NCBI GenBank assembly: GCA_903813345.2
Contig: CAIIXF020000002.1
Span: 26,366,455-26,430,454 of the forward strand
From: Owenia fusiformis
Taxonomy: Eukaryota; Annelida; Polychaeta; Sabellida; Oweniidae
DNA length: 64,000 bases
Direction: 5' to 3'
Of the stretch, positions 36,668 to 64,000 are shown one piece after another. The first letter of the stretch is position 1. Every line of letters begins with the position of its first letter. A model generated the notes under the pieces. The model was not told where the DNA came from. It saw only the letters and a program-made list of their open reading frames with translations, and made no database searches. The position numbers and the translations under genes are program-made.

Positions 36668-37050
36668 ATGGATCTCATTCTTAGTAAGTATTATATATTT
36701 TGTATCGTATTTACGTCATAATTATTATAAAATAAAAAATAAAGCGTATTCGTAAATTAAGCAAGTGAATTAAGACGGATAGAAGGAAAAATGATATGTC
36801 TCCAGTCATCTCAAATTAGTACGTATTATGCTATGCTGTACCTTATAATTAAATATCCGCTTATCATAGACATAACGTTTTAAATGAGCACATGTAAAAG
36901 TTACAATATTTTCTAGGAGAACTGAGTTTCGCATTTTGTTCATTACGACATGTTAGTATAAGTAACCACTGCTAACTTGAAACTTGTTTTTTTGTGTAGG
37001 GGTCGCCTCGGCTCTTATCTTGATGGCTGGGTACAAAGCAAGTGCATCAG
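36668..37050 (+). CDS. Signal-peptide exons 1-2
   Basis: Exon 1 (16 nt) and exon 2 (51 nt) join in frame to read [20 protein letters not shown], a short n-region with Arg, a hydrophobic core and small residues at a plausible cleavage site near residue 20-22. The donors are GTAAGT and GTATGT; the acceptor is TTTTTTTGTGTAG. Exon 2 ends in phase 1 and fits exon 3. This start was chosen because the joined peptide is a textbook secretion signal. Upstream non-coding exons cannot be excluded. Confidence 0.75.
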
Positions 37051-40000
37051 GTATGTGTATAAATGCGAGGGTTGATTCAAAATGAATGGACAACAATAAA
37101 AAAACATTGCAATTGAGTTTTGCTGAATAGCGATTCGATTGTACGTAGCCATTTAATATTTTTTCATTTAGTGGATAATTCCTTGCACGGTTACATAATA
37201 AACCGTTCCCTACTCGAATCATTTCTTGTGTCCACATATGTTAATTGCTTTTGAACCATCCTTTATTCTTATACAATGAAGTGACCATAATCATAGCACA
37301 CGAGAAAGTTCGTGAATAGAATTGTATTTGAGGAATTCGGGAAGTTAATACTTATTTACAACAATATTGTTTACTCGATGACAGGTCAAAGGCAATAGTA
37401 TTGCATCACTTGGCATTGATGCTATACATAGGTTCAAATGAAGCAAACAAAGTTAACAATTGCTTTCAAAAATGATTATATTATTTCCAGTCATTCCAAA
37501 ATCTGCAGTATTCATTAATACCTACTCAAACAAAAGTTATGGAATATCGTACGATCTCCCTGGCACTATTGCTTCAATTTCAAAGGGATCAAAACAGTTC
37601 TTCATCCGAGCCCCTGGACTAACCGGACAATCAGGGACAGTTTCTTTGGAAAGTGTGGAATATCCCGGTTATTTTCTGCGACACTATGGGGCCTCGTGGG
37701 TAGGCTTCAAGAACATGAGTGAAGTAGGAAGCAATACTTCAGAAGCAACATTCACCATCCGTAGGAATAAGTGGTTCCAAGACAGTGTAGCATTTGAATC
37801 AGTGCTCTCCCCAGAATCCTTTCTCGCGCATGACAACTACAGGGTATTATTGTACCCAGATACAGGATCTCAACAATTTGCTAAGGATGCATCGTTCAGG
37901 TTACTGGAAGGTATGTGTGTAGTTAATAAAGCAACAAGTGCAGTAACACTTAAATCCCGTTTTGTCAATAATGAAGAATCGCTGCCGCCATTTTTTTTAT
38001 TTCAGGGAGTAGTAGTTGAACACATTGGAAAGAATAATGACAATGTTTCTTTATGCCCTTCAGCTTATTGCCCTAGTATGGTTGGAATGGAGCCAACTGA
38101 TTTACCACGAACGGGTGACACAAAGGCGAAGCTAATGATTGGTTATAAGTTCACGTGTGATGGACACGTGACCGGATGGAAGCTATACCGGATGTGGAAT
38201 GGAACCGTATTTGCGTCAATATGGAGACCTCTTCTCAACACCACAAATAACTATCAGGTCATTTATTCCATGGAAATGCCAGCATCAGACCAAGGGAAAC
38301 AATATGTAAATGAAATTGAGCCATTTCCTGTCACAAAGGGTGATTTCATTGGGATTCATTACCCAAATAATGCAATAGACTCTGTCATTCCTGAGACAAG
38401 GAACGATTCAAATGATAGTGATTATCTCAGAATAAAAACTTTTGTATATAGCGTAGAGGTGTATAACGAGGACATCGACAATACTACAGTCGTAGATGTA
38501 TCTGATTTTACGCCCAATGAAAGAGCAATTGCGATAGCTGCTGAGTTTACCGAAAATTTCAAATATAGGAAAGGTAGGGATATTTTTCAGTCGGTGAATG
38601 TATTTAACAAATTATAACAGGTAATCCGTCTCAATGATTCGAATAATCAACAAAGTTTGTACGTGGTCATTTTACAAAATTATGGGAAAGGTAATGTTTT
38701 GTAAAAAGAACATCAGGTCAAAAAATGATTCAACAAACGTGCATGATGATTTTACTTGCAGAATGTCGGGATGACCGCAAAGGTGAAAAATATGAAGGGA
38801 GTATATCTCAGACCACTGATGGTATAACATGCCAACGTTGGGATGTCCAATTTCCCCATAAGCATGACAAAATGGACAGTTCATACTTTCCGGATCAACG
38901 TTTAGAAGATGCAGCAAATAACTGTAGAAATCCCTCAAATGACCCTGGGACAAAACCTTGGTGTTATACGAGTGACCCAAGCGTTCGATGGCAGTATTGT
39001 GATGTTCCTGCTTGTGGTATGTTGCAATAAGATAAATCAATAATTAAAAGATCGATCTGAGTCAATAAATACCTAACTTTATCTAAAACTGCTCGATTCA
39101 TTTTAATGTACTATATGATATGTTTCTTTCCTGCAGCATGCCAAGCATCAAAATTAGGAAAGGAATACACTGGTAAACTAAATTTCACAAAGTCTGGTTT
39201 ACCTTGCCAAAGATGGGACTCCCAAACACCACACCAACATCCAAACTTTACGGGATTTCCCAATGGTTCACAGAGTGAAGCTGAAAACTATTGTCGTAAT
39301 CCAAACAACAATGCCGTGGGATTGTGGTGTTTTACGACAAATCCCAGTATATTTTGGGAACCTTGTGATGCTCCAAAATGCAGTGAGTAATCATGTTAAG
39401 AGAGCTTTAGAATTCCCACAACGGGTTAAGTACGTTGCTGATTTTAGATACGGACTAAATATTTTGATTCTTCAAATAAGTTGTAAAGTTGATAAGCTAT
39501 AACATATGATGCAATATGATGACTTTGTATTTTAGATTGTAAAGCAACCGTAGCAGGGCATCAATTCACGGGGTCCATATCAGTTACGAAATCAGGAAAA
39601 CGCTGTCAGCGCTGGGACAAACAGGACCCACACGAACACATTTATTATGACGTATCAAACTTCCCGGATATATCATTTGACGATGCGTCTAACCATTGTA
39701 GAAATCCTGACCAGACATACTCAAAGGGCCCTTGGTGCTACACAACCGATAGAGACGTCCGTTGGGAAGATTGTGCTGTTCCACTTTGTGGTAAAGTAGT
39801 AGTATCGGTGGGCAGGGGGAAATGGTCTGTGTATACCATATTGTCAGGATAATTTGGTTTGGTATATAATGTTTACCCATGGTACTGTGTATGTATACAA
39901 TATTTCTATTTCCAGATTTCGCTATAAATGCTACAGAGGTTCCCCCTCTTACCCAGCCCACAGTTGCTCCAGGTAAATAATGTATAAACAATCTAGGTTA

Positions 40001-43000
40001 TCATAATGTTAAGTCGAACATTGTAATAAGTCAGTATACTGTAAATTGTCATGCGCATGATACTCTGTGTAGCAGCATTGATGTGTTCCCACCCGGCCCC
40101 CTTGGTGTATAAACCTTTGTCGACTAGTTTGGGAAACATTTAAGTCAAGAATACCATGGCAACCTGCAGTGAATTGTTTCAAGGAACATTAACAAAAATC
40201 AGTCCTTTACAGGTCCACGTATCCATGCATCTAATTCACAATCCTTGCTTCCGGCTTTTTGACATCAGATGTTTTATAGGACAATGCCCATTGCGAGTAG
40301 GACGAATGCCGACAGATTTGAAGTTACATGGGACAAACTGGCTTCATCTTATGATTGGTAACCCTATGCCATGTGACGGTTACGTCACCGCTTGGGAGTA
40401 TTATAGGACGAACATGTATTCTATAGCATTGGCAGGGATATGGCGTCCTATGGGGAATGATACATACAAGTTGCTTATGAAAACCATATTACCTGGACTT
40501 CCAGTCTACACTACGGGTAATGTAGAATCAATTTTAAAATGATATATACTATTTACATATTACCACTATCTGTAATTTAGTTATCCAAAAACTCATTCCA
40601 TTTTTAATGGAAAACATTAACAATTCGATTGAATTCTAAAGTGATCAGATGAAAGATTGTCAACTAACGTATATAGTTGGCTGTTCTATTTAGATGTACG
40701 ACGAATATTTTGTATTTCAGGTGTAAATAAAGTATATGTTCCACTTAAACGACCAGTTCAAAAGGGTGACGTTATTGGTGTCCATTTCTATTTTGGAGAA
40801 CCACTGGTTGCTATCCCGATGTCTATTGGAAACGATGGCGTAAATCAAACAGAGCTATATGAGTAAAATATCGCTTTATTTACATAGTATTTTCATAGCA
40901 TCTTTGCAAGTGTTCATTTATGAAAACATTATAATATTACACATTATTCAAGTACCTGTTATTAAGCAAATCTGAATTTCGTGAGTATGCTGGAATGCTT
41001 ATCAAAGAAAATATATACGTTGTTTGCATCGGAATCCGAATTCCTACTCATTAGAACACCGTTTCGAAATATACGGAAAATGTATGATGTAAATGGTGTT
41101 CAATTTACTAGACCCTGCATACGTGCTTACATTTAACTGCATAGTTAATTGTTTGATATTTTCGTAGGACGATTGTTGCCAAACGGTACGACAGAGATAT
41201 GGCTCCTGGTAATATCTTCGACTTTTCTGAGTGGAGTAAAGTAAAACTCACAATGGCGATATGGGCACACTTTGAAGGTACCGACTTGTTATTTTCATGA
41301 AAATGTTCGACTCCAAATCATATATATATCATTTATATTGCATAATTTATGTACATGTATCTTGTTATCACTTCGTACAATGAAATGTAAAACTGCACTT
41401 ATCTATCGCGACAATTATGTTATTTGGTAGTTTTCGATAATACGCGCCCTTTAATCCACGTGCTTTTAAATTCGCGCTAATCACCCAGACGCGAATATAG
41501 CGGAAATTAGGGCACCTTGAAAATTTGGGCTTTTACAGTACTCAAAAATATCTGTTGTGATATGATATGTTGCAGCTTTGGACAACCAGACGTATGTCAC
41601 ACCAACTCCGACAGAACCTCCACTCTCCCTAAGTCATGGCAAGTATAAGTAAAACATGATGTAATACTACACGATATGATTTGAATTTGAGACTGACCAA
41701 TTTGATTCAGGAAATTAGCTAGCGACATTTTTATTCCATTTATACAGAAGATGGCCCATTTGTATTCGAATCAGACGCGAAACCAGGATACTACATCGGT
41801 TATAACCCTCTAAAAGATGCATACTTGCTACCCAATGCCGAGAAACTATTTACGATCCACAACCCTGGCTTAACTTGGGAGTATGGAAATGTATCGCTTC
41901 AGTCAGTTGAATTCCCAGGATTCTTCCTGAGGGTGAATCATTTAGAATTATATCTCGAGTCATACGAGAAGTCCGTTATGAAGGATGACTTCAAACGAGA
42001 TGCAACTTTTACAATGCGTGTAAGTGTGGTATCACCAATGATCTTAATCTGATTACTAAAATGTATCAATATACAGTGTGTTATGTACATCGATTATGGC
42101 ATGTACTGTAGATTGATAAAAATAGAATAGCCATCATTGACTTGGGCTAATAAACTTGTATTTTAGGAGAGCTATTGGTTTGATAACTACACTGCCTTTG
42201 AATCAGTGACCCGACCTAAATATTTCATAAAAACAGAGAACACAAGGCTTGTCATTGCCCTCGACCAGGCTTCATCGATTGCTTTTAAACACGAAGCAGG
42301 GTTCAGGAAATGGAGGGAATGTAAACTGAGCAGACCTGGTACCTCCTACCAAGGCAAATTGAGCACTTCAAGAAATCACAAAATTTGCCAAAGATGGGAT
42401 TCTCAGACTCCACACCGACACAATTTTACAGACTCTAGTTTGTTTCCCGATGATTCATTAGAAATGGCTGGAAATGCTTGTCGTAACCCTGATAATGATG
42501 CGAATGGACCTTGGTGCTTAGTGAGCGATCACGTCCTCACTTGGGACTATTGCGACATAGATTTCTGTGGTAAGATTTAGAATATAGTTTAACTTACACT
42601 GGTAGCATCACAGCTTTACGCACACTTAATCGAAAATATCATATACTTTCTTAAATATATCATCAACATTTCTTAAATACTGCCAATGTTATTTACATAC
42701 TTGACATGTAAAACGTGCATACAATATGAGAATGCATTATTCAAAGGTTTTAAGCATTTAATAAGTATTACCGATATCTAATAATTTCGTTTTCAGAGTG
42801 TCGGTCAAGTTTTAAGGGCGAAAACTACCAGGGAACCGTGTCCAAAACAATCAGTGGTAAAACTTGTCAACGCTGGGACAGTCAATACCCACATGCGCAT
42901 GCGTACACAGATGCAACCAAATTTCCTGGGGGAGATATAGAGGACGCAGCTAACCATTGTCGAAATCCACGCCCACTTTATTCGAATGCATGGTGCTTCA

Positions 43001-46000
43001 CTACAGACCCCGACACTAGATTTGAAATATGTAACATCCCCATGTGTGGTAAGAAAAAACGAAAAATAAGCCCGAAAAATATTCCTTGTTTAGTGTTATC
43101 ATAAAAAATTGACCTTCTACCCTTGAGAAAACCTCCATCACTCGGTCTAACGGCGAATTCAACTCATCTTGGATTTCTATAAAACACTTGCACTCGATCG
43201 AGATCCTTCATTTGTATCATATATATGTGCTTTATTTAAAACATGTTCTATATTACGTTCTAATTGTAGGATTTATGCCCATTGGGCCACCTATTACAAT
43301 GCCCCCTATAACAAGACCACCGCCAGGTTAGTCCAAGCACTTGTACCATTTATTTTTTGTTTTTCAATATGAATAACATATGTGAAAATCAATTGTAAGT
43401 TATTTACATCAAAGTGTACATTTATTCTAATATTTTATTCAAGGAACTTGTCCAAAGGAAGTAGGAAGTCCTCCAACTGATCTGCCCCACACCGGAACTA
43501 ATTGGGCCCACCTAATGACCGGCCATACGTTCCCGTGTGACGGTTACCTCAACGCCTGGCAGTACTTTAGAGGCAACCCTAATGGAAATGTTTATGCTAC
43601 GATATGGCGCCCCATTGCCAAGTCTCAGCATCAACTCATCAAGAAGACACTTCTTCCTTCTGATACAGCGGGCATTCATACAGTAGCATTATCCCAACAT
43701 GTTCCAATCAAACAGGGTGATTTCATTGGAATTCACTATGAGGCTGTCAGTACTGAACCGATTATACCTTTAGCTAAAGATGGCGACAATGCACTGTTTG
43801 CCTACGACCTATATGATACTGCTAATATTGAACGTTACAACGCGGATCTGAATGAAGGGAATGTGGTCGATCTTGGCATATGGAGTAAGAAAAGAGTAAG
43901 ATTTGCTATCCGCGCTTTCTTGGAAGGTACGTTCAAAATGCATTGCTTACCAAAAACCACCGTAACGCAACGCATCTCTCTGTCTCTCTCTGCCTGTCTC
44001 TCTGACTGGACGCACCTTATCCAAGACCATTTAACCCTGGGTCACCATTCTTTAACATATTAAATGGGTCAAAGGGTATCTACGAAGGGCATTCCCTATC
44101 TTTATATTTGTCATTCACTTAGGATATGCTATGAAAACTCATAATAAAGTAACTTAGGTCAAAGTCATTCCAAAGTCATTTGTCAATATTTTTGGCGTTT
44201 AAAGGCATTGATGGGGGATGTTGTGACTATTGGCGAATGGCGACCCATTATGAGGTGGCCTGAGTTCAAGGTCAACATTAATGAGGTCAATGTCATCCCG
44301 ATAGAGAATGTTATGTATCTAGGCATTTTGGCTTTTTAAGGCCATTTAGGGTTACTGTGACTCTAGAATCCATTCTCAAGTGAAATGTCAATGTCAAGAT
44401 ACTTGGCGTTTTAAGCTATTTCGGACTGCTTTGACCCCATGCCGACCCATTATTAGTCGACCTGAGGTCAATGTTTATGGATCAAGGTCATTCAAATGTA
44501 AAGGGTTGATATTAATATCGTAGTATTTGCCGTTTTAAGGCTTTGGGTCTACACTGACCCTTGGCTACCGAGGATTAATTAAAGTGACATGAGGTCAAAC
44601 TTAAATTTCGTCGTTACATCAAATTAGGATACTCTGTTTCATCCAAATGGGTGGATTTCTAGCATGAGTTTAATTCGGAAACGACCCAGTATTTCTTTCT
44701 GGAAAAAAACGATTTGAAAAAAGTTGGAAGCATTTTTTTAATTTATTAAAGTATACTCTTCAAGTACTGTATGTCAAAACGTGAATGACCAAAATTCGAA
44801 TGAAATACTAAAGATATATGCAAAATATAAACATGAACCAAGCATTATACTAATGGCAGATAGTTATGTGATATTGAAATTTTGTAGATCCGGATATAGA
44901 GTGCAAGATATCAGAAAATGGCGAGGAGTATAAAGGGCGTGTATCGGTGACCCAATACGGCATTCCTTGTCAACGTTGGGACTCGCAATCACCACATGCT
45001 CATAACTACGTGGATCCATCTCGGTAGGGCAACCATGTTGGAAGACTAATGTTAAATGGGAGAAATTGAATAATTTGTCAAACGAAGAGTAAAGATCATT
45101 ATGTAAAAACACGTTTTCAAAACATTGATCATACCAGAACAACTGTTGTTTTAGGTTTCCAGACAAAGCCCTCTCAGATGCTGGTAGTTACTGTCGCAAT
45201 CCATTGCCAGCTGATCCCAATGGACCATGGTGTTACACGACTGACCCAAGTATTATCTGGCAGTATTGCAACATACCTCCCTGTTGTAAGTGTATTTCCA
45301 AATGAGTACAACCTTCATTGCTCGTTGAACTTCATTAACAATCTCAAGACTAAAATATATAAGTTTCATAACCGACTGATGTACATTGAAATCCATTTAT
45401 GCACGTTCTTCTCAATTAGAAAAGTCATCGACAGAAAGATTACTTAGTAATATGTATTTGCTATTAATTCTAATTTCAAGAGTTCATGCTTTTTGATGAC
45501 TGTGTTTGATTTTCATTTGTCCTTGGTAGTCATTATCTTAGGTAACTTACTGCCTTGATCATTCCAGCTACCCCTGCTAATACAACGACCTCACCTTCCA
45601 CAACGAAGTCCCCATCTGGAGCATCGAGTTAGTATTCAGACTGTTTCTTAATCTTTGCTAACTAAAAGTAATTTTCAATATGACATCTGATCAATTTAAT
45701 TTAATTTTCTATTCACTATTTTTTTTATTTCAGAACAAGGTCCATTATACATAGTTTCTAAGAATAAACCTGCTCATGATTTCGGGTTGGATAGTAACGG
45801 AAGAGGCATACTCATGAGAGGCGGTGATTTATTTTATATATTAAGTCCAGGTCTGAACTTCCAGAAAGGAACTATCTCTTTCGAATCCGTTGAACTTCCA
45901 GGATCATTTCTACGAAACTCAGGTGGTAAAATTAAATTGGAGGAATTCTCGAGTGTTCCATCTTTTCTTCATAGTGCCACTTTCTGGGAAAGAGAGAATC

Positions 46001-49000
46001 AGTTTTTCAGCAACTACACGGCATATGAATCAGTGGAGAACCCTGGATTTTACATTAGACACTCGGCGAACAGCCTCGTACTCGAGGAGTTTAGTGGACG
46101 ACATGTGTTTACGGAGGATGCAAGTTTCTGGAATGTAATAGGTATGGAATTGGACAAATCGACGTGTTGCTAAAATCATGCATACACTTGAAAATCTCAG
46201 TCGATTTTATGTTAATCAAGGTCATTGAAACATGGAATCAATCGCATTCTTTTGAAAATTAATAAAACCGAATTAGCAGATGCGTTTATTTACTGCTTTT
46301 TATTTAGCAAACTGTACTGATAAAGTTGGTTCTACACCTGTCCAATACCCTAGAATTGGAGTCACAACTGCGTTACTTATGACAAACAATACATTTCCTT
46401 GTGATGGCTACGTCACTCGGTGGGAATACTTCCGGGTCACTGGAGCACCTGCATTCGTTGGAGTGTGGCGCTTTAACGGTGGTACTAGTTACACTCTAGT
46501 TGCTGAACGCGTGTTATCGTCAACTTTAGCCAACCACACTGGGTTAGAAGAGTTCACACCAAGAGATCCAGTTAAAGTAAAAAAGGGTGATTTTATAGGT
46601 ATGTACATGGAGAAAAGTATGGTTAATTAAAGTGACTTAATTGTTAGTACAACAATGTGACAAAAACATCAAAACTGTACTTTATTACTACTAGATTTAT
46701 TTCCCCTCCATTACTTGGAGATAATATAATAATTATGTATTACAGACATATCGAATACTTGAGAATATCTTATTTCTAAACAGGTGTAACATACATAGAG
46801 CTTACGAGGAGACCCGCCATACCTGCAGCTACAATTGATGATGGGTTTGTCGGCGATGACCGTCTCTTTGACACGATAAATGCGCAGTTTTATACCGATG
46901 ATACAAATGTTGGCAAATCAATCGACGTCTCTGGTTATCAACCTACAAAAGTTACAGTTGCACTCGCGATCCGTGCACATTTTAGAGGTATTAAACTACT
47001 AATAAAAATCATAAAACACCTACACTGACAACGCATATTACCTTTATCGTGTGTGACGTGACGTGAACGCACATTTGGAAATCAAAATACTGCCATGTTT
47101 TACATAGTCAACATTATCAATAATAAGTCTTAGACCATGTATTTGTATGGTTTGTTTTTAGAGTCGAATCCACCTGCCCCGCCTCTTCCTCCATCAGCCT
47201 CTGGTAAGTCAGAATATTTCCATATATTACTTATTCAGTGGATCCGTTTTTAAATGTTGTTATATACTCATACTGTAGAATGTTGAATTATGAATATAAT
47301 TAGTTCACCACTACGATGGTTTGAATATATTTCAATCACAATTGAATCATTGAGGGATGCATTGACATTTAATGAATCCAAATAGTATAATCAAGTTATC
47401 CCTAGAAAGCAACGCGAGAACGATTTGATGTAAGGGATTACCCTTTGGGACAACCAAACCAAATATAAAAATGCCCAATGGACGCTACACTACTTTCTGG
47501 CAAAACTTGGATTAATATGAAACAGTTTATACTCGCCATTGACGAGATATTAAAAATTATTAAACATAACATATTTTGTAATTGCTTTTTACAAACACTT
47601 TTTGTTTTGTAGACTGCAAACATACCGGGAGGGGAACTAGATACACAGGGACAAAGACGAGAACAAGAAGAGGGTTCATTTGCCAGAGGTGGGACAGTCA
47701 AACCCCACATAGACATGACAAAATAGACGCTGAACTTTTCCCCGACAAGACATTGGCTGATGCCGCGAATTTTTGCAGGTTTGATTTACGAGTAAAACCA
47801 TGGGATTGATCTCCAACGCATTAAAAAGGCTATTCATTGAATGAAACTTTTATCATAACCAGTATTAGAAAAACTACTTTGTTTGCATTCGAGATCCTGT
47901 TTTTTTCAGGAATCCGCAGGGTGATATTGGCGAGGAGCCATGGTGTTACACTTTAGATCCTGGCACTGTTTGGGACTATTGTGACATTCCTAACTGTGGT
48001 AAGCTCATCTTATAACTTCAATATTTTACCTTAAAAACTTGTATTTAATGATATTTTTATAAGCCTGAACAGTACAATATGAGGATACAAATGGAAATAC
48101 TTTAACATTTGAAAAATGGATTAATTCTTATAATGATGTATTAATTAAATTATGTAAATTGTCATGTGAGGCGAAACAATTTTAAATAAATTATTGTATC
48201 GTTGCACCAAATGCCCAAATGATTAGGAGATGGTTTGATAAATAGATTGAACGAAGTTGGATTAAGCATATCTTGTCTATATATTCTCCAGACTGCAGTG
48301 CCCTGGAGCTTGGCACAGATTACATGGGAACTGTTAATTCATCAAGAAGTGGCTTCCAGTGTCAGAGATGGGATTCACAAACTCCAAATCCTCATCCTAT
48401 GTACAATGATACAAGCTTTCCCGATGGTTCTGCGACTCTTGCTGAAAACTTTTGTAGAAACCCCGATAACTCATCTTCAGGCCCTTGGTGCTTCACCCTT
48501 CAACCAGGTGTCCCGAGAGAGGAGTGTGATATTGCTCGATGTGGTAGGTATATGTATATTATCTTATGTCATTGAGTGATTAATGTAAGGGACGCATAGA
48601 TTGTTGTTTTACCTAGTGAGTAAGGACAATAAAAATACTGAAAATATAGGTGAAGATATCAGCTTGTGTATTGACTGCATTTTAATCAGTATTACTGTAT
48701 TATCAGTTCTACTTTTGATTGTCTAGTTATTAGGGTGGCTCAAAATAAATTTTTTTTGGAAATGTTATGCTCCCTACATGAATCGAGTTGCATTTTGGGG
48801 TAAATATCACCTGTGATTTTTTTCAATTTTTTTAGTCAACTTTTAGGGGTCCCCCACAACCCATAGGCTTAACATTTGCCCATAGGCTTAACATTGGTGG
48901 GCGTCGCCCAAAAAACGTACTTTATAGAAGCTCTTTTTCTAGTGATTCAATTATATTCTTTGAAGAAAACCAACATTGTATATGATATTAATAGATGTTT

Positions 49001-52000
49001 AAATCATCATAATACTCTGTTTCATCATGTGAACTTATATAAAAGGTTATACTTACAATATCCTATTAACAAAATATATATAACAAGGCTTGTATAATTA
49101 TTTGAACAAGTACAGTTTTAGAGAATCATGTCTCATATATGATTGGTATTTAAACTGAAAAAGGTATATTCATTCTTGTCATTTGATGTTTTAAACATGG
49201 TTCAAATCAGCTTTTCTTATATGTGACACTCTTCGTCTATGATCTGAGCGTACAACACATACAATGTCACGATGCGCCGCGTCATGGGTCATTTGAGAGC
49301 ATTCCTGTACCAGCTTCACTGCTCGTTTAGCTGGATCATTAACAGAATGCAGGTCTTGACAGAAATTCTATCGGCAGTACGACCCTGATATAGCAAACGC
49401 AGCTCTTCGCAGTGTAAGACGCCATCTATGGTACCTCTGCCCTGAATTTGTTGTTTTGTCCCTATTCGACGAATACACTGCCAGAGAGGAGAAGCAGGAG
49501 TTTGCTACAGCACTGCTCAACATCCCACGGCCTGTATAATTTGCAACTGGCAAACCAGGACAGCCTGACTTCAACCCAGTTGCTGCTCACTTAGGCAATA
49601 TTAAACCATCACTAGCAATGTTTGTCACTGAGAGATCATGGCTCTTATTTCAAATCCTGGAATCAGATCCAATTATATGGCTTCAAGAGAATCCAGTTGC
49701 ATGGCATACACATCCAACTTATGTTCAAACCCAGAATTTCTGTCAAGACCTGCATTCTGTTAATGATCCAGCTGAACGAGCAGTGAAGCTGGTACAGGAA
49801 TGCTCTCAAATGACCCATGATGTGGCGCATCGTGACAATGTATGTGTTGTACGCTCAGATCAAAGAGGAAGAGTGTCACATCTAAGAAAAGCTGATCTGA
49901 ACCATGTTTAAAACATCAAATGTCAAGAATGAATATACCTTTTACAGTTTAAACAATTATAATGACAATACCAAATCATATACCAAACATGATTCTCTAA
50001 AACTGTACTTGTTCAAATAATTATACTGGTCCAATGTACCTGATATTTTGGTAATAGGATATGGTAAGTATAACCTTTTATATAAGTTCATATGATGAAA
50101 CAGAGTAATATGATGATTTAAACATCTAATCATATCATATACAATGTTGTTTTTCTTCTGACAACATAAATAAATCACTAGAAAAAAAGCTTCTACAAAG
50201 TACGATTTTTGGCGACGCCCACTAATGTAAAGCCTATGGGCAAACTTCAAAGGCTGTGGGGGACCCCTAAAAGTTGACATTAAAATTTGAAAAAAAATCA
50301 CAGGTGATATTTACCCCAAAATGCAACTCGATTCATGTAGGGAGCATAACATTTCCAAAAAAAAATTATTTTGAGCCACCCTACTAGTTATTCATTTACA
50401 ATTCACAATTAGTAACATACTTTTAAATTGAGGAAGGACGGATAAGTAAAAGAATATTAGCAAGTGTTACATTATGGTTTTATTCTAGAATGTAAAGCCA
50501 CCAAAGGGGGTTGGGAATATGGAGGTAGAAGATCTAAAACAATCTCAGGTCGCACTTGTCAGAGGTGGGATCAACAGACGCCACATAATCACGTGTAAGT
50601 AAGCAACTTTCCAGACGTTTACCAGCTTATTATTAGCACATCTATAGTAGTACCTATTCGTTTGTCAAATTATTAACGTTTAAGGCCGCGGAAACAACAA
50701 GTATTACATTTGCCAGGTTCGATCTCAATTTACCAACTTCATCATAGGAAATTCAACAATTTGTTTTGTATTTTTTTCAATGATACTACTGATTTTACAG
50801 GGAAATATGAAGAAATAAAAAAATTATTGAATCGTATTACATGAAAAAATCGTATTGGAGCGCATTACTTGAAGAAATCGTATTGTGCCCGGGAAAAATC
50901 GTTTTGAAGCGTATTAACCTATTTTTGGTTTCCAGGTTATTTTTAATATTTTAAACCTTTAACCTTTTTAACTTCTAACAATGCGCATTTATTAATATAA
51001 TGTAACATTTTAGAGGGATGTATTATTGAATTAATCGCCTATTTCTGGTCGGGATTGAATATGGGTTTTATTCCACAGAAATATCATATTACCCTTGGGC
51101 AATATGATATTGACACTCGGCCGATTCGCTCCCTTCGGCCAATATCATATTGTTCCTCGGAATAAAATCTATATTCAATCCCTCCAAGAAAATAACCTAT
51201 ATGTATCGTATCGTATCGTATTATACTGTATTGTATTGTATTGTATTGTATTAAGTATTGTATTGTATTGAAATGATAGTCCAATGCTTAACACTACTTC
51301 AAATAAAACGGTACCATGGTGTACAAACACACTGTATAACTATTATAGATTCACAGAAGATTGGATGTTTCCTGACGCGACTGTGTCTGACGCAAAATCT
51401 TACTGTCGTAACCCAGACATACTTGTATTTGGTGGACCATGGTGCTACACAACTGACCCTGACCAACGGACAGAGTTCTGCGATATTGAGCTGTGTCGTA
51501 AGTTGTTTTGTAACCGTTACTTATACATGCAAAACTGTTCAAAATGAGACTCAAAATTTCGAGTTTTGGACGTTTGACCCTTCATAAATCATAACACACA
51601 ACTCTTTCAAGAAAATAATCAGCATTCTTTGCAAAACGGTATGCTCTCAAATGTTGAAATGCATTTTATTTTCGTTAAATAACCGACAGAGTGAAGTAGT
51701 GACTTAAAGTGTGACTATGCAGTTTGAATATGTGTAAGTAAGGTCTTGAGGAATTATCACATTATTTACGTCATAGAATTATCAGCATTGTTTTACATCA
51801 ACCACATAATTATCATCTTCCAGCAACGCCTCCTACCACACCAAACCCAGCGACCACATCACCAACCACACCATTATCCACTGCAACGCCTCCTGAATGT
51901 CCAGAGTTCGTTGGCAGACCAGTAGGTGATCTTCCCCTCAGAGGCAATCCTTGGGCACACATCATGCTGAACATGACGTTTCCATGCGATGGCTATGTCA

Positions 52001-55000
52001 CTGGATGGGAATATTACCGGGATAAGCTCAACGTGAATGTATATGTTGATATCTGGAGACGGCTATCTCCAACACCATTTAAGAGTAAATTAGAAGGTTC
52101 CACTAGGACCACACTTCCTCAACGATTTGAGCTCATCGCGAAATCAGTGTTAGCTACAACTAAAGATACTGCCTTGGGTGTTAATGTCGAAATGTTACCA
52201 AATAAAATATTTGTGAAAAGAGGTGATATCATTGGACTGCATTACGATGCAATAAACTCCCCGGTTGTTATTCCGAGCTCAAATGGAGGAAATGGGCTAG
52301 TACCACAAGAGGAACTTTATCAGACGGTCAGTTTACCGAGAGACAATGGGGACCTAACTCCAGGGAATTTGGTTGATGTCACGCCCTGGTCTTCTGCAAA
52401 GATGGTGTTTGCTCTGAGGGCTGTGTTTGAAGGTGGGCCCATCTGTCTAAATTAAATAATCTCTCCATTACGTGTTCATAATTCAGTACAAAACTTATGT
52501 TGTGCACCAGGCGGTTTGAATTGAATAACACATGTATTCTGTTTCGTGTTCTATTATTTAGGTATTTCCAACACATCTGGGCCAATACCTACAATTGTGC
52601 CACCGCAAACAGCCAAAGGTATGTAGCTAATATGTTAAATTCGTGTCCTTGATAATTTTGAGAGTAACTGAAAGATCTACAAAAACATCTGATAATAAAT
52701 AATTCTAATGATTAGGGACCACTTCTTCACCCTTTGGTATCTTTCTTTAACCTTTAGGAAGTGGTCCCTATTACTTCGAGACAAAGACTCTACCACGCCT
52801 GGATATAGGATTCACAAACACTGGAAAGGGAGTTGTCAATGCCACAGGGGAACTTCTGTTTTTGGACAGGGGGCAAAACGGAGCTATTCAAACCGTCTCA
52901 ATCGAATCACAAAACAGACCAGGATGGTATCTAAGACAAAGAGGGTTCGACTTCTACTTAGAGGAGTTGGCAAACGCAACCAATGTGCCTCGCTTTGAAG
53001 ACGATGCTACGTTTATAATGGAGAATGATAAATGGTTCCCTGGTTATACAATTTTCCAAACATTTACATACGGCGATCATTACATGGCGCACGACGATGA
53101 ATATTCACTTAAGGTCAAACAATATGTGGACAATGATGAATTTAAGGATATGACTAGCTTCAAACTTATTTTAGGTAAGTTTTAGAAATTAGAGATGTCA
53201 AACAATATGTCTCAAGAAAATAGTTCCATATTTTTTTCTATTATGATGGGTTCAGGTGGCGAAGAACAGCTGAACAATAAACATATTAAGTAGATTATTC
53301 TCAGACAAAAATCACTCATTCCGGGCGGAATCATTTGATTTATTTGCCTTCAATATATTTACTTGATCTCTTAATGTATGATTCATAGACATATTTATCA
53401 CTTATAGTCGTTTTAAAATATATGAATAAATAGACACACATCCCTTCAATTTTGTGACAATATCAACAATTCCATGTAGAACTGGTTGTTTGTAGAATGT
53501 AAAATTACAAGTATGGCGTCCACATACTCGGGGAAACGCAGAACAACTCGACAGGGGTACACATGTCAGCGTTGGGACAAACAAGCACCTCATAGTCATC
53601 CTTATACTGATCCAAATATGTACCCAGACGAGACATTAGACGATGCTAGTAATTCCTGCAGAAATCCTGATAATGATCCACTTGGACCATGGTGCTATAC
53701 AACTGATCCAGATAAGCGAATGGATTTCTGCGATATACCATTTTGCGGTGACTATTTCATAATCGATCTTGCTGACTCTTCATATTCCTCAACATTATGT
53801 TCATAATTTGTAAAAGTGATTTCTCGACCCATATAGACTTTTATAGTCAACCGTATTCCAAGCGCTATGCCGAGTGTCCTAACTTAAACATTTTCATGAC
53901 TTTCAGGTTGCAAAGTAGATAACATTGGGTTAGACTATCAAGGCACAATATCAATGACAAGCGTTGGATTTTCATGTCAACGATGGGATACCCAATTTCC
54001 ACACAGACACGAATTTTCAAATCCATCCAAATTTCCCGATAGAACGCTACAGGAAGCATCTAACTACTGCCGGAATCCGACCCCTGGACGAGAGTTTGGT
54101 CCTTGGTGCTACACGACCGATCCGGACATCAGGTGGTCCTATTGCTATATTCCATTTTGTGGTGAGTGATACAGAAATACTTAGAGAAAAGTATACGAGG
54201 CACTCTGTAGAAAGTATTAGAGTTAAGATTAGTGCATTGAGAACATGGAGTTCGGGCATTGGAAATAAATACCCCATGCCGAATCGCAAGGGTACTTAGG
54301 ATTGTCATTGGTATAATGCAACAGATCCGGTGTAAAAGAGTAGGAGGTCCTATCAATATATGGTCCTCATCCCTATGATTTATATGGTGACCTAATTACA
54401 ACTCTTTCTTTATTATCTTATACACAATCAGGGCCAGTAAGGGCCGTTAAGAAGGGGGACCATAATCCCCGGGGACCATAATTTCTTCACACCGGATCAA
54501 CTTTTCACTTTCAGCGAGTTTTGGTGTTACACCAGCGCCTCCTACATTACCACCATCTACGCCTAAACCAGGTTAGTTCAAATCATCTAGTAAGTAATAT
54601 TATTTTCTTGCAGACAACAGCCACTATTATACATTCGTCCAGCAAATCACCTTTTGACATTTTACGTTTGCTTTTAAACACAATGCTACATGTAAATGAA
54701 TACGATACAAAATACAATTAAATGAGGAAATATAGTTTTAAAAATTATATTCAATTTTATACTTTTTGTTTTTTGTTTTACTTCAGGAACATGTGCAACG
54801 AGCGTAGGTCGAGAGCCTAGTGATTTGCCATACCATGGAGACAAGTGGGCACATCTCATGACAGGGAATACTTTTCCATGTGATTCTAAAATAGAATCGT
54901 GGGAATATTATATCGATGATAACTCATTGACATCTGCTTACCTTACGACATGGCGTCCTGTTGCTAAATCTCGTTTCACTCTTATCAGTTCTACCCGAGT

Positions 55001-57807
55001 TGTAGCGACCCGCCCAGGGAATCATTCTGTTATTCTAACACAACAAATAGATGTAAAACAAGGCGACTTTATTGGTATACACTATGAACATAAGGCTAAA
55101 GGTGGCATCATCCCGTTCTCAAGAGGAAACGATGATGTTGTCCCAGATAATCAACTTTTTGACACTGTGATTCTCCCAAGAGATGATTCTGACTTCCATG
55201 TTGGAAATACTATAGATCTCAGCGGCTGGTCTACTATCAAGGCTACATTTGCAGTAATTGCAAGGCTGGAGGGGTATGGGAAACCTATACCAACTCCAGC
55301 ACCAACTGGATCCCCTCCTCCAATTAATAAAGGTGAGATCAATACTTGATAATTCTCCATGTCTTGCTTTATCGATTGCAATGTTATCAAAATGTTATGT
55401 TCTGGATAAACTATGAGTACTGGGTTTAAGAGAAAAAAATAGTTCTCATAAAACACAATGGGAAGGGTTTATCTAACTTAAACCCTGCAGTGAATTTTGA
55501 TTTCTTTTGTATTGACTATGAGGTAGGTGTCTTGAGAAGTGAGTGCGTGTAATTAGTTCAGCTCCATTGCACTGCATGTAACAGGTCGGATACAGTTTGA
55601 AATCTCGTTTCCTTTTTTGTTTTACTATTCAACATTGAATGAGTGAATAGGGACTTAATCAGCCCAACTTTAGTGCACTGCATGTGACAGTTAATCGTCT
55701 TTTATGTCACGCTAATGCCTTTGGTTACATTTGCTCCGATCCATCGGCCGGCGCCCGCCCGATTGAGTGGTTTGCTCAATATTGTATTCAATTTTGAACA
55801 AAATACTCAAACGGCCGGGCGCCGTAGAGAAAATCTGAGCAAATGTGACCAAGGCATAAAGGAGGAGGGAAAGTATCGCAACAGATTTCGGACAGTCATA
55901 TATTGGATCTCTGCTATTTTCTGAGGATTTAAACAGGTGCATATGTTAGGCCAGTCCAGTGCATTATCTCCCGGAAAAGCACTCATATTGATGATAAAAA
56001 TAATTTTGACTTTGAGACAAGGGAGATGCAAACAACCCACCCACATGTATTTTCTGAAATGTTGTCCTGATTTCCAACCCCTTCCACCCCTGCTTTTTCA
56101 ATTTGTGTTGCATCAATATGTTGCGTTTTAAGACACAGATAACCTCTTAAAAGGTATAAGGGATTCCCCTTCAATAAAGTGGAAAAAATATTTCTCATAA
56201 TATTTTCCCACAGGGAAAACTCATGCGATCCATCGTTTTCACCTAATTTTGGTCACCTATAATAGATATCTTCAAAACCCCTGAAGGGATTACTTATTCC
56301 TTTAAAGAGGTTAATTGTGTGTCAAAAAGCAACAATTGATGCAACGAAAATTGGAAAAACATGAGTGGAAGAGGTTGAAAATCAGTACAACATTTCAGAA
56401 AAAACACGTGGGTGGGTTGTTTGTATCTTCCCTGTCTCAAAGTCAAATTATTTTTTCATCTCTATGAATGCTTTTTCTGTAAGTAATGCATTGGCCTAGC
56501 ATATGCACCTGTTTAAATCCCCAGAAAATAGCCAAAATCCAACATATGACTGTCCGAAATCTGTTGCGATACTCTCCCTCCTCCTTTGGATAGCTTACCA
56601 AGTGTCAATTCTTGAAAAACACTAGAAAAAGAATACACTCTTCTTCGTAACAATTACATATATTCTTTAAAATAAACAAAAGTTCAATTCATGGTGTTGA
56701 TTCATAAAACGGTAATGGCACACTGTACGCAAGTGATTTAATGAGCTTCGTAGGTAATGGAAATACGTATGATACTCATGCCCATGGAAATTCTTATATG
56801 CACTTTCAGAATGCAAGTACACACAGCTTGGCTCCGAGTATATGGGTCAACAAAAAGTCACAACTGGGCAGACTGAATGTCAACGCTGGGATTCGCAGAC
56901 GCCTCACAAACACAATTATTACGGAAATTCAAGGTAAAGTATCAGTTTTGTTCGAGCACATGTATTGATAGATGTTAAATCTCAAATACATTACGAGAAA
57001 CAATTTTTGATCTACCACACATTTTTAATCAAAGTCAAATCAATTCGCATAATTATGACTTACACCCCAGTCACATTTGTCGTACGGAGGCCGTGCGTCG
57101 ACTGCAGATCAATTAAATCAGTGTATTTCTGCGGCGAGCGTAGGAAAACTACCCTCGCCTTGTGGCCTCCGTACGGCGTATCCAGTTTTTTACAGGCCGC
57201 AGGGTCGCCAAAGAAATTATAACTCGGAGTTATAATATTTGTTCATTTCTGAGGTCCCCGGAGAAATCAACTGGCTCAACAAGATTGGATCATTATTTGT
57301 CAATGTTTCACGATCACTTTTCATCTGATATTACATCCTAGCACTATGAATAACATTTATAAATTGTCACGATGTAAATAAAATGAAAAAAATATTATTT
57401 ATCAACAGAAATTTAAAATTCACCGTGCGGCTGCCGTGGGAAATGTGACTGCAAAAGTATGAGAGCGCAGAAATTCCACGGCGAGCGTAGCAATGTTACT
57501 GGCCGCAGAAATGATAGACCGCAAGGTCGCCGTAGGAAATGTGACTGGGGTGTTAGACAACGGGCTGTTATGCTACGATTATTATGCAGCAGTTAAGCGG
57601 TATTGTGTATATATATGGCATCAAAAATTTATGCCACACACGACGCAAAATTTTTCAAAATACATCAATTTCAGATTTCCCGAAAAGAACGTTACTGCAG
57701 CAGGCAACAATTGTAGGAATCCTGACAAGAAGCCCGGTGGACCCTGGTGTTTCACAATGAACCCTAACGTCACATGGGAATATTGCACAGTGCCCTATTG
57801 TGGTTAG
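36668..57807 (+). CDS. Giant secreted kringle/AbfB/X-module protein gene, 38 exons, about 2,770 aa
   Basis: Exons: 36668-36683, 37000-37050, 37491-37910, 38064-38573, 38762-39016, 39137-39382, 39536-39790, 39916-39972, 40280-40516, 40721-40862, 41168-41277, 41576-41638, 41748-42019, 42167-42569, 42797-43048, 43270-43326, 43444-43926, 44888-45023, 45155-45285, 45568-45627, 45734-46141, 46308-46598, 46784-46987, 47162-47203, 47613-47778, 47910-47998, 48292-48543, 50489-50594, 51349-51497, 51824-52432, 52562-52618, 52758-53174, 53496-53747, 53907-54161, 54515-54571, 54787-55332, 56810-56933, 57675-57807. Every junction has AG acceptors and GT donors except one GC donor (41639), and the frame stays open throughout. 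Module boundaries are phase 1. Content: signal peptide, 4 AbfB, 6 X modules, 12 kringles. TAG follows the last kringle at once; a GTTAGT donor overlaps it, so further exons are possible. No protease domain or membrane segment is seen. Likely extracellular binding protein. Confidence 0.85.
37491..37910 (+). CDS. AbfB domain 1 (exon 3, residues 23-162)
   Basis: One 420-nt phase 1-1 exon. It contains the paired AbfB signatures [14 protein letters not shown] and [15 protein letters not shown], each followed by an F-rich ATF/ASF turn. AbfB (CBM42) is a beta-trefoil that binds arabinofuranose side chains in fungal enzymes. Here it has no attached catalytic domain, so a binding role is inferred and the ligand is unknown. 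Confidence 0.8.
38064..38573 (+). CDS. X module 1 (exon 4, residues 163-332)
   Basis: An unrecognised module of about 165 residues in one exon. Conserved features shared with the other five copies: CP..VG..PTDLP near the start, LMIG, a second Cys in [10 protein letters not shown], then IWRP, and [12 protein letters not shown]. It closes with VVDVSDF and an alternating hydrophobic strand. The acceptor must be the CTTCAG at 38058-38063: using the earlier TTTCAG (38007) gives an immediate in-frame TGA. Probably a beta-sandwich with one disulfide (inference). Confidence 0.8.
38762..39790 (+). CDS. Kringles 1-3 (exons 5-7, residues 333-584)
   Basis: Three kringles, each on a single phase 1-1 exon (38762-39016, 39137-39382, 39536-39790). 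Each has six Cys in kringle spacing and the hallmarks CQRWD, CRNP and W-C-[YF]-T. Kringle 3 has no Met. The DxD pair after CRNP that forms the anionic centre of plasminogen-type lysine sites is absent in all three (PSND, PNNN, PDQT). Confidence 0.92.
39916..39972 (+). CDS. Linker exon (exon 8)
   Basis: A 57-nt phase 1-1 mini-exon encoding about 19 residues ([18 protein letters not shown]). It is Pro/Thr-rich, like six other linker exons in the gene, and joins kringle 3 to X module 2. Good acceptor TATTTCCAG and donor GTAAAT. Confidence 0.7.
40280..41277 (+). CDS. X module 2, split over exons 9-11
   Basis: Three exons (40280-40516, 40721-40862, 41168-41277) rebuild one X module: [34 protein letters not shown], then [13 protein letters not shown], and a C-terminal strand ending WAHFEG. 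The internal introns are phase 1 and phase 2. X modules 1, 3, 5 and 6 lack these introns, so introns were gained here or lost elsewhere. Confidence 0.8.
41576..41638 (+). CDS. Linker exon with GC donor (exon 12)
   Basis: 63 nt, phase 1-1, encoding a Thr/Pro linker ([20 protein letters not shown]). The next intron starts GCAAGT, a GC-AG intron: the alternative GT five bases later would shift the frame and break the downstream AbfB domain. Confidence 0.65.
41748..42569 (+). CDS. AbfB domain 2 fused to kringle 4 (exons 13-14)
   Basis: Exon 13 (41748-42019) and exon 14 (42167-42569) join in phase 0 at [11 protein letters not shown]. AbfB signatures are [13 protein letters not shown] and [13 protein letters not shown]. 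The frame runs directly from the end of the AbfB domain ([10 protein letters not shown]) into a kringle without an intron, unlike the other AbfB domains. Kringle 4 has six Cys and [13 protein letters not shown], keeping the DxD of lysine-binding kringles, although its cationic position (before WDYC) is Thr. Confidence 0.85.
42797..43326 (+). CDS. Kringle 5 and linker (exons 15-16)
   Basis: Exon 15 (42797-43048) is a complete six-Cys kringle ([29 protein letters not shown]) without the DxD pair. Exon 16 (43270-43326) is a 57-nt Pro-rich linker ([19 protein letters not shown]). Both are phase 1-1. Confidence 0.85.
43444..43926 (+). CDS. X module 3 (exon 17, residues 1116-1276)
   Basis: Single-exon X module and the clearest consensus copy: [44 protein letters not shown], then [26 protein letters not shown] and [10 protein letters not shown] ending FLEG. 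Phase 1-1. Confidence 0.82.
44150..44610. repeat. Degenerate satellite of about 125-bp units in intron 17
   Basis: About 3.5 diverged units share GAGGTCAA..GTCAT, TTGGCGTTTTAAGGC and GTGACYC motifs in the same order. AT/GC balance differs from neighbouring introns. Non-coding. Confidence 0.5.
44888..45627 (+). CDS. Kringle 6 and linker (exons 18-20)
   Basis: Kringle 6 is split (44888-45023, 45155-45285) by a phase-2 intron at SR/FPDKAL, the same position and phase as in kringle 12. Six Cys; [14 protein letters not shown]. Exon 20 (45568-45627) is a Ser/Thr linker ([19 protein letters not shown]). This closes the first half of the protein. Confidence 0.85.
45734..46141 (+). CDS. AbfB domain 3 (exon 21, residues 1386-1521)
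   Basis: Single phase 1-1 exon with both AbfB half-signatures: [14 protein letters not shown] and [15 protein letters not shown], followed by DASFW. It opens the second copy of the internal duplication. Confidence 0.8.
46308..47203 (+). CDS. X module 4 (exons 22-23) and linker (exon 24)
   Basis: 46308-46598 and 46784-46987 rebuild one X module: [38 protein letters not shown], and KKGDFIG interrupted by a phase-1 intron exactly at the KGDFIG motif. The module continues to [15 protein letters not shown]. Exon 24 (47162-47203) is a 42-nt Pro-rich linker ([13 protein letters not shown]). Confidence 0.8.
47613..48543 (+). CDS. Kringles 7-8 (exons 25-27)
   Basis: Kringle 7 is split (47613-47778, 47910-47998) by a phase-2 intron inside CR/NP, a different site from kringles 6, 9 and 12. 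Its second half has [12 protein letters not shown]. Kringle 8 is one exon (48292-48543) with [13 protein letters not shown]. Both have six Cys; neither has the full DxD. Confidence 0.88.
48731..50383. mobile_element. hAT-like fold-back transposon in intron 27
   Basis: Ends are TAGGGTGGCTCAAAATAA and its complement, flanked by an exact 8-bp duplication CTAGTTAT (48723-48730, 50384-50391). An 8-bp duplication fits hAT or P superfamilies. The two arms (about 48731-49370 and 49727-50383) are inverted copies of about 640 bp, and each includes the 3' end of the element's own coding sequence. The unpaired centre carries the rest of a decayed transposon protein. Confidence 0.8.
49375..49911 (+). pseudogene. 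Decayed transposon protein fragment
   Basis: In one frame it reads [20 protein letters not shown], ..[19 protein letters not shown].. to RPV, a stop at about 49537, then onward through [12 protein letters not shown] and [20 protein letters not shown] to a terminal stop. The [10 protein letters not shown]-type motif is familiar from uncharacterised repetitive proteins of invertebrate genomes. The internal stop and missing N-terminus mark it as a relic. Its last 180 nt also occur inverted at about 49190-49370. Confidence 0.65.
50489..51497 (+). CDS. Kringle 9, split by an 0.75-kb intron (exons 28-29)
   Basis: Exon 28 (50489-50594) gives ECKATKGG to [12 protein letters not shown]; exon 29 (51349-51497) gives [33 protein letters not shown] and CDIELC. 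They join in phase 2 as Val. The intron contains repeats at 50830-50915, 51050-51181 and 51198-51271. DxD is absent. Confidence 0.85.
50830..50915. repeat. Tandem AATCGTATT repeat in intron 28
   Basis: About three units of some 30 bp share AATCGTATT followed by GCGYATTACTTGAA-like sequence. Non-coding. Confidence 0.45.
51050..51271. repeat. Inverted repeat element plus GTATT microsatellite
   Basis: GGGATTGAATATGGGTTTTATTCC-type sequence at 51053 faces GGAATAAAATCTATATTCAATCCC ending at 51181, with ATATCATATT internal arms. It is followed by (GTATC/GTATT)n at 51198-51271. A relative lies at 35486-35577. Confidence 0.6.
51824..52618 (+). CDS. Thr/Pro linker fused to X module 5, plus linker (exons 30-31)
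   Basis: Exon 30 (51824-52432) begins with a [20 protein letters not shown] linker and continues without an intron into X module 5: [54 protein letters not shown], ending VFEG. It has an insertion of about 17 residues after the RR (residues [14 protein letters not shown]). Exon 31 (52562-52618) is a separate 57-nt linker. Confidence 0.8.
52758..53174 (+). CDS. AbfB domain 4 (exon 32, residues 2177-2315)
   Basis: Single phase 1-1 exon. Half-signatures are more diverged: [14 protein letters not shown] and [16 protein letters not shown], with DATF and TSFKL following. Position in the gene matches AbfB domain 2. Confidence 0.75.
53496..54571 (+). CDS. Kringles 10-11 and linker (exons 33-35)
   Basis: Kringle 10 (53496-53747) has six Cys and [21 protein letters not shown]: DxD, Trp, Tyr and Arg are all present where plasminogen kringles bind lysine. 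It is the best lysine-binding candidate of the twelve; one aromatic position is Met. Kringle 11 (53907-54161) has [14 protein letters not shown] and lacks DxD. Exon 35 (54515-54571) is a Pro/Thr linker. Confidence 0.88.
54787..55332 (+). CDS. X module 6 with C-terminal linker (exon 36)
   Basis: [81 protein letters not shown], ending RLEG. A Pro-rich tail ([19 protein letters not shown]) follows in the same exon. The usual CDGYVT is CDSKIE here. Confidence 0.8.
55858..56587. mobile_element. Fold-back element copy B in intron 36
   Basis: AAAGGAGGAGGGAAAGTATC at the left and GATACTCTCCCTCCTCCTTT at the right, with mirrored arms of about 320 bp (TTTCGGACAGTCATAT, CAAACAACCCACCCACATG). It is uninterrupted, so it serves as the reference for copy A (33812-35354). 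Non-coding. Confidence 0.75.
56810..57807 (+). CDS. Kringle 12 and stop (exons 37-38)
   Basis: Exon 37 (56810-56933) and exon 38 (from 57675) join in phase 2 at SR/FPEKNV. Six Cys; [13 protein letters not shown]. After the last Cys the frame reads Gly then TAG (ending 57807). GTTAGT at 57803 could instead act as a donor, so the true C-terminus is uncertain. The intron holds a Harbinger-like MITE. Confidence 0.82.
57063..57552. mobile_element. PIF/Harbinger-like MITE in intron 37
   Basis: Ends CACCCCAGTCACATTT and complement AAATGTGACTGGGGTG are flanked by TTA on both sides (57060-57062, 57553-57555), the 3-bp TWA target duplication of PIF/Harbinger. 490 bp, no transposase. Several GGCGAGCGTAG and GGCCGCAG motifs lie inside. 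A diverged relative is at 2345-2795. Confidence 0.8.
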
Positions 57808-63532: not shown

Positions 63533-63762
63533 AAATGTGAGTGCATTATAAGACCTTATCATCCCATAATAGAAGTTCTCATATACATGTATTATGTTTA
63601 ACCATAAATTCTTTTACAAATTTTCACACTGCAAATAAAATAGACTATGATGAGTAAAGATGAAAGTGCATAAGAGCCCTATCCTACCATAATAGAAGTT
63701 CTTATATGCAATGTATAATCATTATAAACCTTACAAATTCTCAAACTGCTAATAAAATAGAA
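63522..63762. repeat. Tandem duplication of ORF end and 3' flank
   Basis: Copy 1 (63522-63646) begins ATGATGAGTAAA, which includes the stop codon, and runs to an AATAAAATAGA. Copy 2 (63647-63762) repeats the same order (TGATGAGTAAA, CCATAATAGAAGTTCT, AATAAAATAGA) with scattered changes. Each copy has an AATAAA (63634-63639 in copy 1) that could serve as a polyadenylation signal. Confidence 0.75.
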
Positions 63763-64000
63763 AAAAGCTATTTTATCTTTTCTTTCAGTGTATTAAGAGT
63801 TATTTGAATGAAAGGTTAATTTGAAAACTTATATTACCATAGGAAGCAACTAATGATGTATCAAGTCATAAAATGCAGTACAAGATTGACCATTAATACA
63901 TATCTGAAAGATAATATCTATTTATTATTTATTTTTAAGTAATAATAGCGATTCAATGGGGGGGGGGGGTAAATTTTAATAACAATCTGGTTAACATGGC
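63763..64000. other. Non-coding window end
   Basis: AT-rich, with a poly-G run at about 63958-63969. Nothing else recognised. Confidence 0.4.

Follow-up and report, generated by a model that had tools for sequence, protein, structure and literature searches.

The window, by which we mean the whole stretch of 64,000 nucleotides analysed here (G000:C2:26366455-26430454 of Owenia fusiformis), carries on its forward strand a long series of exons encoding kringles (K), AbfB domains (A) and a third module, X, without a family name. The hand-checked chain from 36668 to 57802 joins 37 exons into an open frame of 2,750 residues; GT-AG borders are present throughout, and 31 of the 37 exons leave in phase 1. 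The original prediction had placed here 38 exons in consistent phases and about 2,770 residues; the consistent phasing and the open frame stand, with one exon fewer and with a 3' end that is probably not real.

Scanned with local profiles made from its exons, the window yields 12 kringles, 4 AbfB and 6 X modules; these lie between 37589 and 57804, on the + strand throughout, and their numbers are exactly those predicted. When the window was scanned together with regions L009-L015, 88 stretches reached E<=1e-3 on the + strand and none on the - strand, and at this threshold positions 1-36667 and 57808-64000 of the window hold no module stretch. Pfam applied to the whole window chain gives Kringle in 12 stretches (814.2 bits, cut-off 34.3) and AbfB in 5 stretches (190.9 bits), and no other family above its cut-off, so the window chain contains no protease, as had been stated earlier; a sub-threshold interleukin-1 match (16.8 bits) falls within an AbfB trefoil. 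In a scan of the whole 498-Mb, 525-contig assembly all four window AbfB exceed the PF05270 cut-off of 22.8 bits and all twelve window kringles are listed above cut-off, at least in part. The features of the locus, with the evidence for each, are as follows:

36668-36683, +, putative first coding exon (MDLIL..), phase 1 donor; sequence, weak support
37000-37050, +, second exon, encoding what is putatively the hydrophobic core of a signal peptide; splice scores 9.3 (acceptor) and 10.3 (donor), phase 1-1
37491-37910, +, AbfB 1 (A1); PF05270 in ORF, exon chain
38064-38573, +, X1; local profile, exon chain
38762-39790, +, kringles 1-3 (38762-39016, 39137-39382, 39536-39790); PF00051, exon chain
39916-39972, +, Pro/Thr-rich linker exon; exon chain
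40280-41277, +, X2 in three exons (40280-40516, 40721-40862, 41168-41277); local profile, exon chain
41748-42569, +, AbfB 2 and kringle 4 (41748-42019, 42167-42569); PF05270, local profile, exon chain
42797-43048, +, kringle 5; PF00051, local profile, exon chain
43270-43326, +, Pro/Thr-rich linker exon; exon chain
43444-43926, +, X3; local profile, exon chain
44900-45285, +, kringle 6 in two exons (start maybe 44888), closing the first 11-module block; PF00051, exon chain
45568-45627, +, Thr/Ser/Pro-rich linker exon; exon chain
45734-46141, +, AbfB 3, opening the second 11-module block; PF05270, PDB CBM42 matches
46308-46987, +, X4 in two exons; local profile, exon chain
47162-47203, +, Pro-rich linker exon; exon chain
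47613-48543, +, kringles 7 and 8 (47613-47778 with 47910-47998; 48292-48543); PF00051, exon chain
50489-51497, +, kringle 9 in two exons (50489-50594, 51349-51497); PF00051, exon chain
51824-52432, +, Thr/Pro linker and X5; local profile, exon chain
52562-52618, +, linker exon; exon chain
52758-53174, +, AbfB 4; PF05270
53496-54161, +, kringles 10 and 11; PF00051, exon chain
54515-54571, +, Pro/Thr-rich linker exon; exon chain
54787-55332, +, X6 and linker (the X part being the query of the structure model); local profile, exon chain
56810-57802, +, kringle 12 in two exons (56810-56933, 57675-57802); PF00051, exon chain
57803-57808, +, probable splice donor GTTAGT, read earlier as the stop GGT TAG; same site in paralogue L015
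58054-64000, no strand, DNA transposon in the K12-K13 intron, ending 657 bases past the window end; 660-bp inverted repeats

The 5' end is uncertain. The first coding exon at 36668 contributes 16 coding nucleotides and its donor is weak (score 4.4), so that it remains putative, and automatic chains begin at ATG 37023 instead; a first exon and a signal peptide (22 residues, not shown), as in the original prediction, are nevertheless plausible.

Run unguided and with a low intron penalty, the exon chain picked up many short exons that are spurious and drew even on the transposon ORF; stricter runs and hand curation superseded it. Between K8 and K9 a candidate exon (49559-49831) was rejected, having splice scores of 2.4 and 0.3 and no module, and the later exon-chain runs masked 48600-50440; the same large intron contains a 123-aa open frame (49540-49908) which is possibly a repeat fragment. 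Elsewhere in the window a 699-aa open frame on the + strand (28315-30411) has matches to AIG1/septin-like GTPases and a sub-threshold match to fibronectin III, a long AGGA-type tandem repeat occupies 1-1362, and a second tandem repeat with a unit of ~30/59/89 bp occupies 8466-8969.

The End of Kringle 12 and the Adjacent Transposon

An in-frame TAG (57805-57807) lies directly after kringle 12, in the reading GGT TAG (57802-57807). The same letters form an exon end in phase 1, TGTG followed by GTTAGT, and an exon end of the form TG(T/C)G followed by GT is found in 35 of 41 kringles at three loci; the six others are C1 K3, C2 K2, K6, K9 and K24, and L015 K7, some of which are clipped by the profile. 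The internal kringle K2 of paralogue L015 ends in TGCG followed by GTTAG, with the same apparent stop, and then come five more kringles, two X and a tail exon. Since the same site follows an internal kringle in this paralogue, we think it very probable that the TAG at 57805 belongs to a splice donor.

The gap between K12 and K13 measures 6,871 nt and contains an insert which by its sequence is a young DNA transposon. Its inverted repeats of 660 bp are 98.5% identical (58054-58713 and 63998-64657, extended contig), TTG stands on both flanks, and its + strand ORF of 1,435 aa (59225-63529) matches no Pfam family. The first 200 residues of this ORF have 48 genomic matches, the own copy included, and the terminal repeat has 90, the own two included. 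Subtraction of the transposon leaves an intron of 251+16-3 = 264 nt; in the raw chain described below, the median length over 80 introns is 265 nt. Kringle 13 starts in the phase matching the kringle 12 donor. No AATAAA or ATTAAA is present in 57808-58769, the first one after 57808 being located at 58770, inside the transposon.

The Array beyond the Window

For the 3' part, 40 kb of downstream sequence (L009-L012) were added, and positions are given in the numbering of the extended contig. The order after K12 is K K A K K X A K K X A K K K K K K X X, then K K K X X, so that the whole array comprises 27 K, 7 A and 12 X, in total 46 modules. When all 46 modules are joined in a raw chain, 81 exons give 5,914 residues; several of these exons are of poor quality, and the joins inside K20, K23 and K24 are ambiguous. 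Because there are doubtful cases among the short exons, the full protein is estimated at ~5,700-5,900 residues.

The last exon (103137-103405; G000:C2:26469591-26469859), a predicted open frame of 93 residues with no kinase match, encodes a hydrophobic stretch followed by a tail with the motif FDNPTY. It lies outside the window, and we infer that it belongs to the array. A tail-exon profile built from four sequences, this array's tail among them, gives 114.0 bits on its own tail, and because the next best score in 36001-104000 (8.5 bits) is no better than that of the antisense control (8.8 bits), no second tail is seen in this interval. A sub-threshold likeness to Amnionless (cut-off 30.4) is found for the L015 tail (19.9 bits, E 3.6e-4) and for the tail of this array (16.5 bits, E 0.0039).

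The largest gap of the array is the one of 11.5 kb before K25 (86.5-98 kb), most of which is a nested inverted-repeat structure of ~10 kb (87305-97736, between X10 and K25) with arms 88-89% identical. The X9-X10 pair preceding K25 resembles the X-X end found before the tail of the paralogues on C1 and at C2:16.8M and thus looks like a gene end, which makes two genes, with a boundary in the 86.5-98 kb gap, possible.

Related Loci in the Same Genome

The genome-wide scans gave at least 150 scored kringle stretches, some with internal stops, 25 AbfB matches and 37 X matches, clustered on C2, C6, C1 and elsewhere. A hydrophobic segment and a [FY]DNPxY motif are present at all four array 3' ends read (C1:51.7M, C2:16.8M, C2:26.5M, which is the present array, and C6:25.9M), the motifs being YDNPAY, FDNPAY, FDNPTY and FDNPVY. 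Further tails occur on the same strand as the kringles on C3 (FDNPVY, 15 kb 3' of the kringles; weak match, E 0.090) and on C4 (FDNPAY, 27 kb 3'; weak match, E 0.027). A tail is thus located downstream of five other kringle loci, three being array ends read and two (C3, C4) apparent, and [FY]DNP[AVT]Y is found in 6/6 tails at or 3' of kringle arrays. Of the C6 cluster a part of 86 kb was covered, and the tail count is confined to the loci named here, most other kringle clusters, such as C8:8.3M and C2:10.1M, standing outside it. An open frame 5' of the first AbfB found on C6 (L024) is reminiscent of a farnesoic-acid O-methyltransferase-like domain and may give the C6 array an additional module at its N-terminus. 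A tail-like exon at C1:32.37M (L027; G000:C1:32366001-32366800) encodes a hydrophobic segment and NPLY, with no kringle listed nearby.

A Probable Block Duplication within the Array

The order A-X-K-K-K-X-A-K-K-X-K is present twice in the window, accounting for its 22 modules, and the modules paired by position in the two 11-module blocks have a mean identity of 44.7%. When modules are relabelled within all types, the observed pairing is reached in 20 of 8640 cases by identity and in 9 of 8640 by BLOSUM62. Most of this signal is carried by K, which supports the duplication alone (10/720 relabellings by identity, 4/720 by BLOSUM62); the X pairing is the best of 6 relabellings, and the A pairing gives no support, both of its 2 relabellings reaching the observed value. 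The best-match lists by themselves do not make an 11-module duplication visible. Identical halves arise in 37 of 1,000,000 shuffles when the 22 window modules are permuted, and some repeat of at least 11 modules in 18 of 2000 shuffles of all 46. On the basis of the repeated order and of the relabelling and shuffle tests, an old 11-module block duplication is likely.

Predicted Fold of the X Module

Structure prediction, proposed with the original prediction, was run on X with the X part of X6 as query and 9 window sequences (4 whole, 5 partial). The resulting model is nearly all beta (pLDDT 88.9, pTM 0.86) and is with confidence predicted to be a jelly-roll, one that may be akin to those of bacterial and phage lectin-like or carbohydrate-binding domains. 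Foldseek returned 2 PDB matches at E<=0.001, with a TM-score of 0.53 by query length, the highest among the 50 matches listed. A second structural comparison gave, in its best 15 rows, Z from 10.9 to 8.5 and rmsd 3.5-4.6 over 139-156 residues, including phage proteins (Z 10.9, rmsd 3.5-3.6, 151-154 aligned), the Cwp84 lectin-like domain (Z 9.9, rmsd 4.4, 144 aligned) and the CBM of carbohydrate esterases (Z 8.9, rmsd 4.0-4.1, 140-144 aligned). The shared fold by itself shows no function.

At the sequence level X has no Pfam, NCBIfam or PHROG family above threshold, and X6, the one X tried, has no PDB sequence match. Pfam scans of 12 whole or partial X sequences show DUF4082 in two of them, below its cut-off of 28.4 bits (13.1 bits, E 0.092; 15.7 bits, E 0.015), and DUF7265 matches one X below threshold (E 0.016).

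Binding Residues of Kringles and AbfB

K10 resembles plasminogen kringles (E 8.4e-90 against the whole five-kringle chain) and is also matched by ROR kringles. The two lysine-site Asp residues of plasminogen-type kringles (positions 55 and 57) are both kept in 5 of 41 kringles at three loci, two of them among the twelve of the window (K4 and K10), and K4 is without Arg71; these positions were read by pattern and may be misplaced where loops are longer. The combination of two Asp with an aromatic pocket, by which a lysine-binding kringle is recognised, is absent from most kringles. An anionic centre is described as needed by lysine-binding kringles in passages of PMC10110952. As just 5/41 keep both Asp, most kringles of these arrays would not be classical lysine binders.

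AbfB 3 matches solved CBM42 domains in the PDB. The arabinose pockets of AtAbf43C are given as H70, Y73, D89 and H118, Y121, D136 in a portion of PMC12493170; when the beta and gamma lobes of the window AbfB are read by pattern and by eye, A1-gamma keeps the His, Tyr and Asp, A3-gamma keeps the His and Asp, and in the other lobes the pocket residues are partly lost or ambiguous. Since both the Asp pair and the His and Asp pocket are only partly kept, the ligands of the array may be other than lysine or arabinose.

Discussion

We consider it rather probable that a single giant gene, of which the window contains the 5' portion, encodes a type I membrane receptor, probably an endocytic receptor of many ligands. 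The modules and their order, the open frames and phases, the 3' tails read, the K12-K13 transposon and the predicted X fold are all drawn from the sequence, and from these we infer that one mRNA would contain all exons, that the hydrophobic segment would span the membrane, and that A, K and X may bind ligands which are taken up by endocytosis. The ectodomain would be a chain of ~46 modules (27 kringles, 7 AbfB-type trefoils and 12 X jelly-rolls) with Pro/Thr-rich linkers, presumably assembled via phase-1 exon shuffling and block duplication; a single membrane span and a short FDNPTY-bearing tail would come after it. In this mechanism many weak contacts, of A and X with glycans and of K with proteins, would retain large polyvalent ligands, and the FDNPxY tail would recruit PTB-type adaptors and clathrin, the receptor and its cargo then being internalised. 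FDNPVY is the internalisation signal of the LDL receptor, and motifs of the NPxY type bring in AP-2, Dab2 and clathrin, according to sections of PMC4584282. The cargo, at a guess, would be glycan-coated particles or microbes. The idea of multivalent recognition contained in the original prediction holds for this mixture of kringle, AbfB and X without a protease.

Its proposal of a secreted protein, by which the chain would end at kringle 12 as a multivalent recognition or matrix protein, takes the in-frame TAG immediately 3' of this kringle as a stop. We regard such an ending as highly improbable, given that the TAG falls within a donor which is also used after the internal kringle K2 of L015, that no polyadenylation hexamer of either form precedes the transposon, that the next kringle would stand ~264 nt away if the transposon were removed, and that a membrane-type tail terminates 4/4 array ends read; for a matrix protein no positive support was found. 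A division of the array into two or three adjacent genes, in which gene 1 would extend to ~86.5 kb or to K12 and a small K K K X X receptor with its tail would occupy 98-103 kb, agrees with the similarity of X9-X10 to the X-X pair before the tail of the paralogues on C1 and at C2:16.8M, to a member of which X10 is nearest (55%), and with the position of the largest gap before K25. However, this gap is mostly inverted-repeat structure, no second tail exon in 36001-104000 exceeds the antisense control, and one model places a phase-1 linker exon containing Pro/Thr at 86666-86737 after X10, which is absent in a stricter run, so that we judge the division somewhat unlikely.

The tail could also serve in adhesion, if NPxY recruited PTB/talin-like adaptors and a giant receptor linked cells to a glycan-rich matrix or to partner cells, with no uptake of cargo. 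The very long ectodomain with its repeat expansion would suit this function, and NPxY is also found in integrin and other tails, as parts of PMC4584282 describe; the motif in 6/6 tails at or 3' of kringle arrays is nevertheless [FY]DNP[AVT]Y, of the LDL-receptor class, and the weak Amnionless likeness points to uptake, which leaves adhesion alone as an unlikely role. Within the reading of an endocytic receptor, it is a tentative possibility, and a doubtful one, that the arrays form an undescribed, expanded family of giant receptors combining plasminogen-type kringles, two lectin-like modules and an LDL-receptor-type tail, which would evolve fast in the capture of glycan-coated particles or microbes.

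Proteases, growth factors and a small number of receptors are the usual setting of kringles. Tandem kringles as present here are known from plasminogen, HGF and apolipoprotein(a); unlike these, the array interleaves its kringles with A and X, and whereas plasminogen and HGF have a trypsin-like domain, the window chain has none and the last exon of the array encodes a membrane-type tail. ROR1/ROR2 and Kremen, which have one kringle plus other modules, are membrane receptors with a kringle, as is proposed here, where dozens of kringles are present, and in contrast to the cytoplasmic kinase of the ROR receptors the short tail of the array is without a kinase match. The LDL receptor/LRP and cubilin-amnionless, multiligand endocytic receptors, share with the proposed protein a very large repeated ectodomain, a single span and a short (F/Y)xNPxY tail, the tail likeness to Amnionless being weak, and FDNPTY, in the exon assigned to the array from beyond the window, has the FxNPxY form of the LDL receptor/LRP; however, Pfam finds in the window part of the chain no LDL-receptor class A, EGF, CUB or YWTD propeller domain. 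The window AbfB belong to PF05270 and match solved CBM42 domains of the kind found in arabinofuranosidases, but the window chain is without a glycosidase and the pocket is partly kept.

No paper combining kringle with AbfB or arabinofuranosidase was found in the open literature searched, and broader searches listed none on this architecture; database entries with the same architecture may exist without a name. The parts are all known except X, which is without a family name, and it is their combination that was not found in the literature searched. If the proposed reading is true, the array represents another animal route to giant multiligand endocytic receptors, with modules borrowed from the repertoire of coagulation factors and of microbial polysaccharide-binding proteins. 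The X module, without a Pfam name, gains a testable fold and a context: its model aligns over most of its length with jelly-rolls of a lectin-like kind (Cwp84, carbohydrate-esterase CBM), a tentative likeness, while X differs from these and from DUF4082 in having conserved cysteines and phase 1 at both exon ends.
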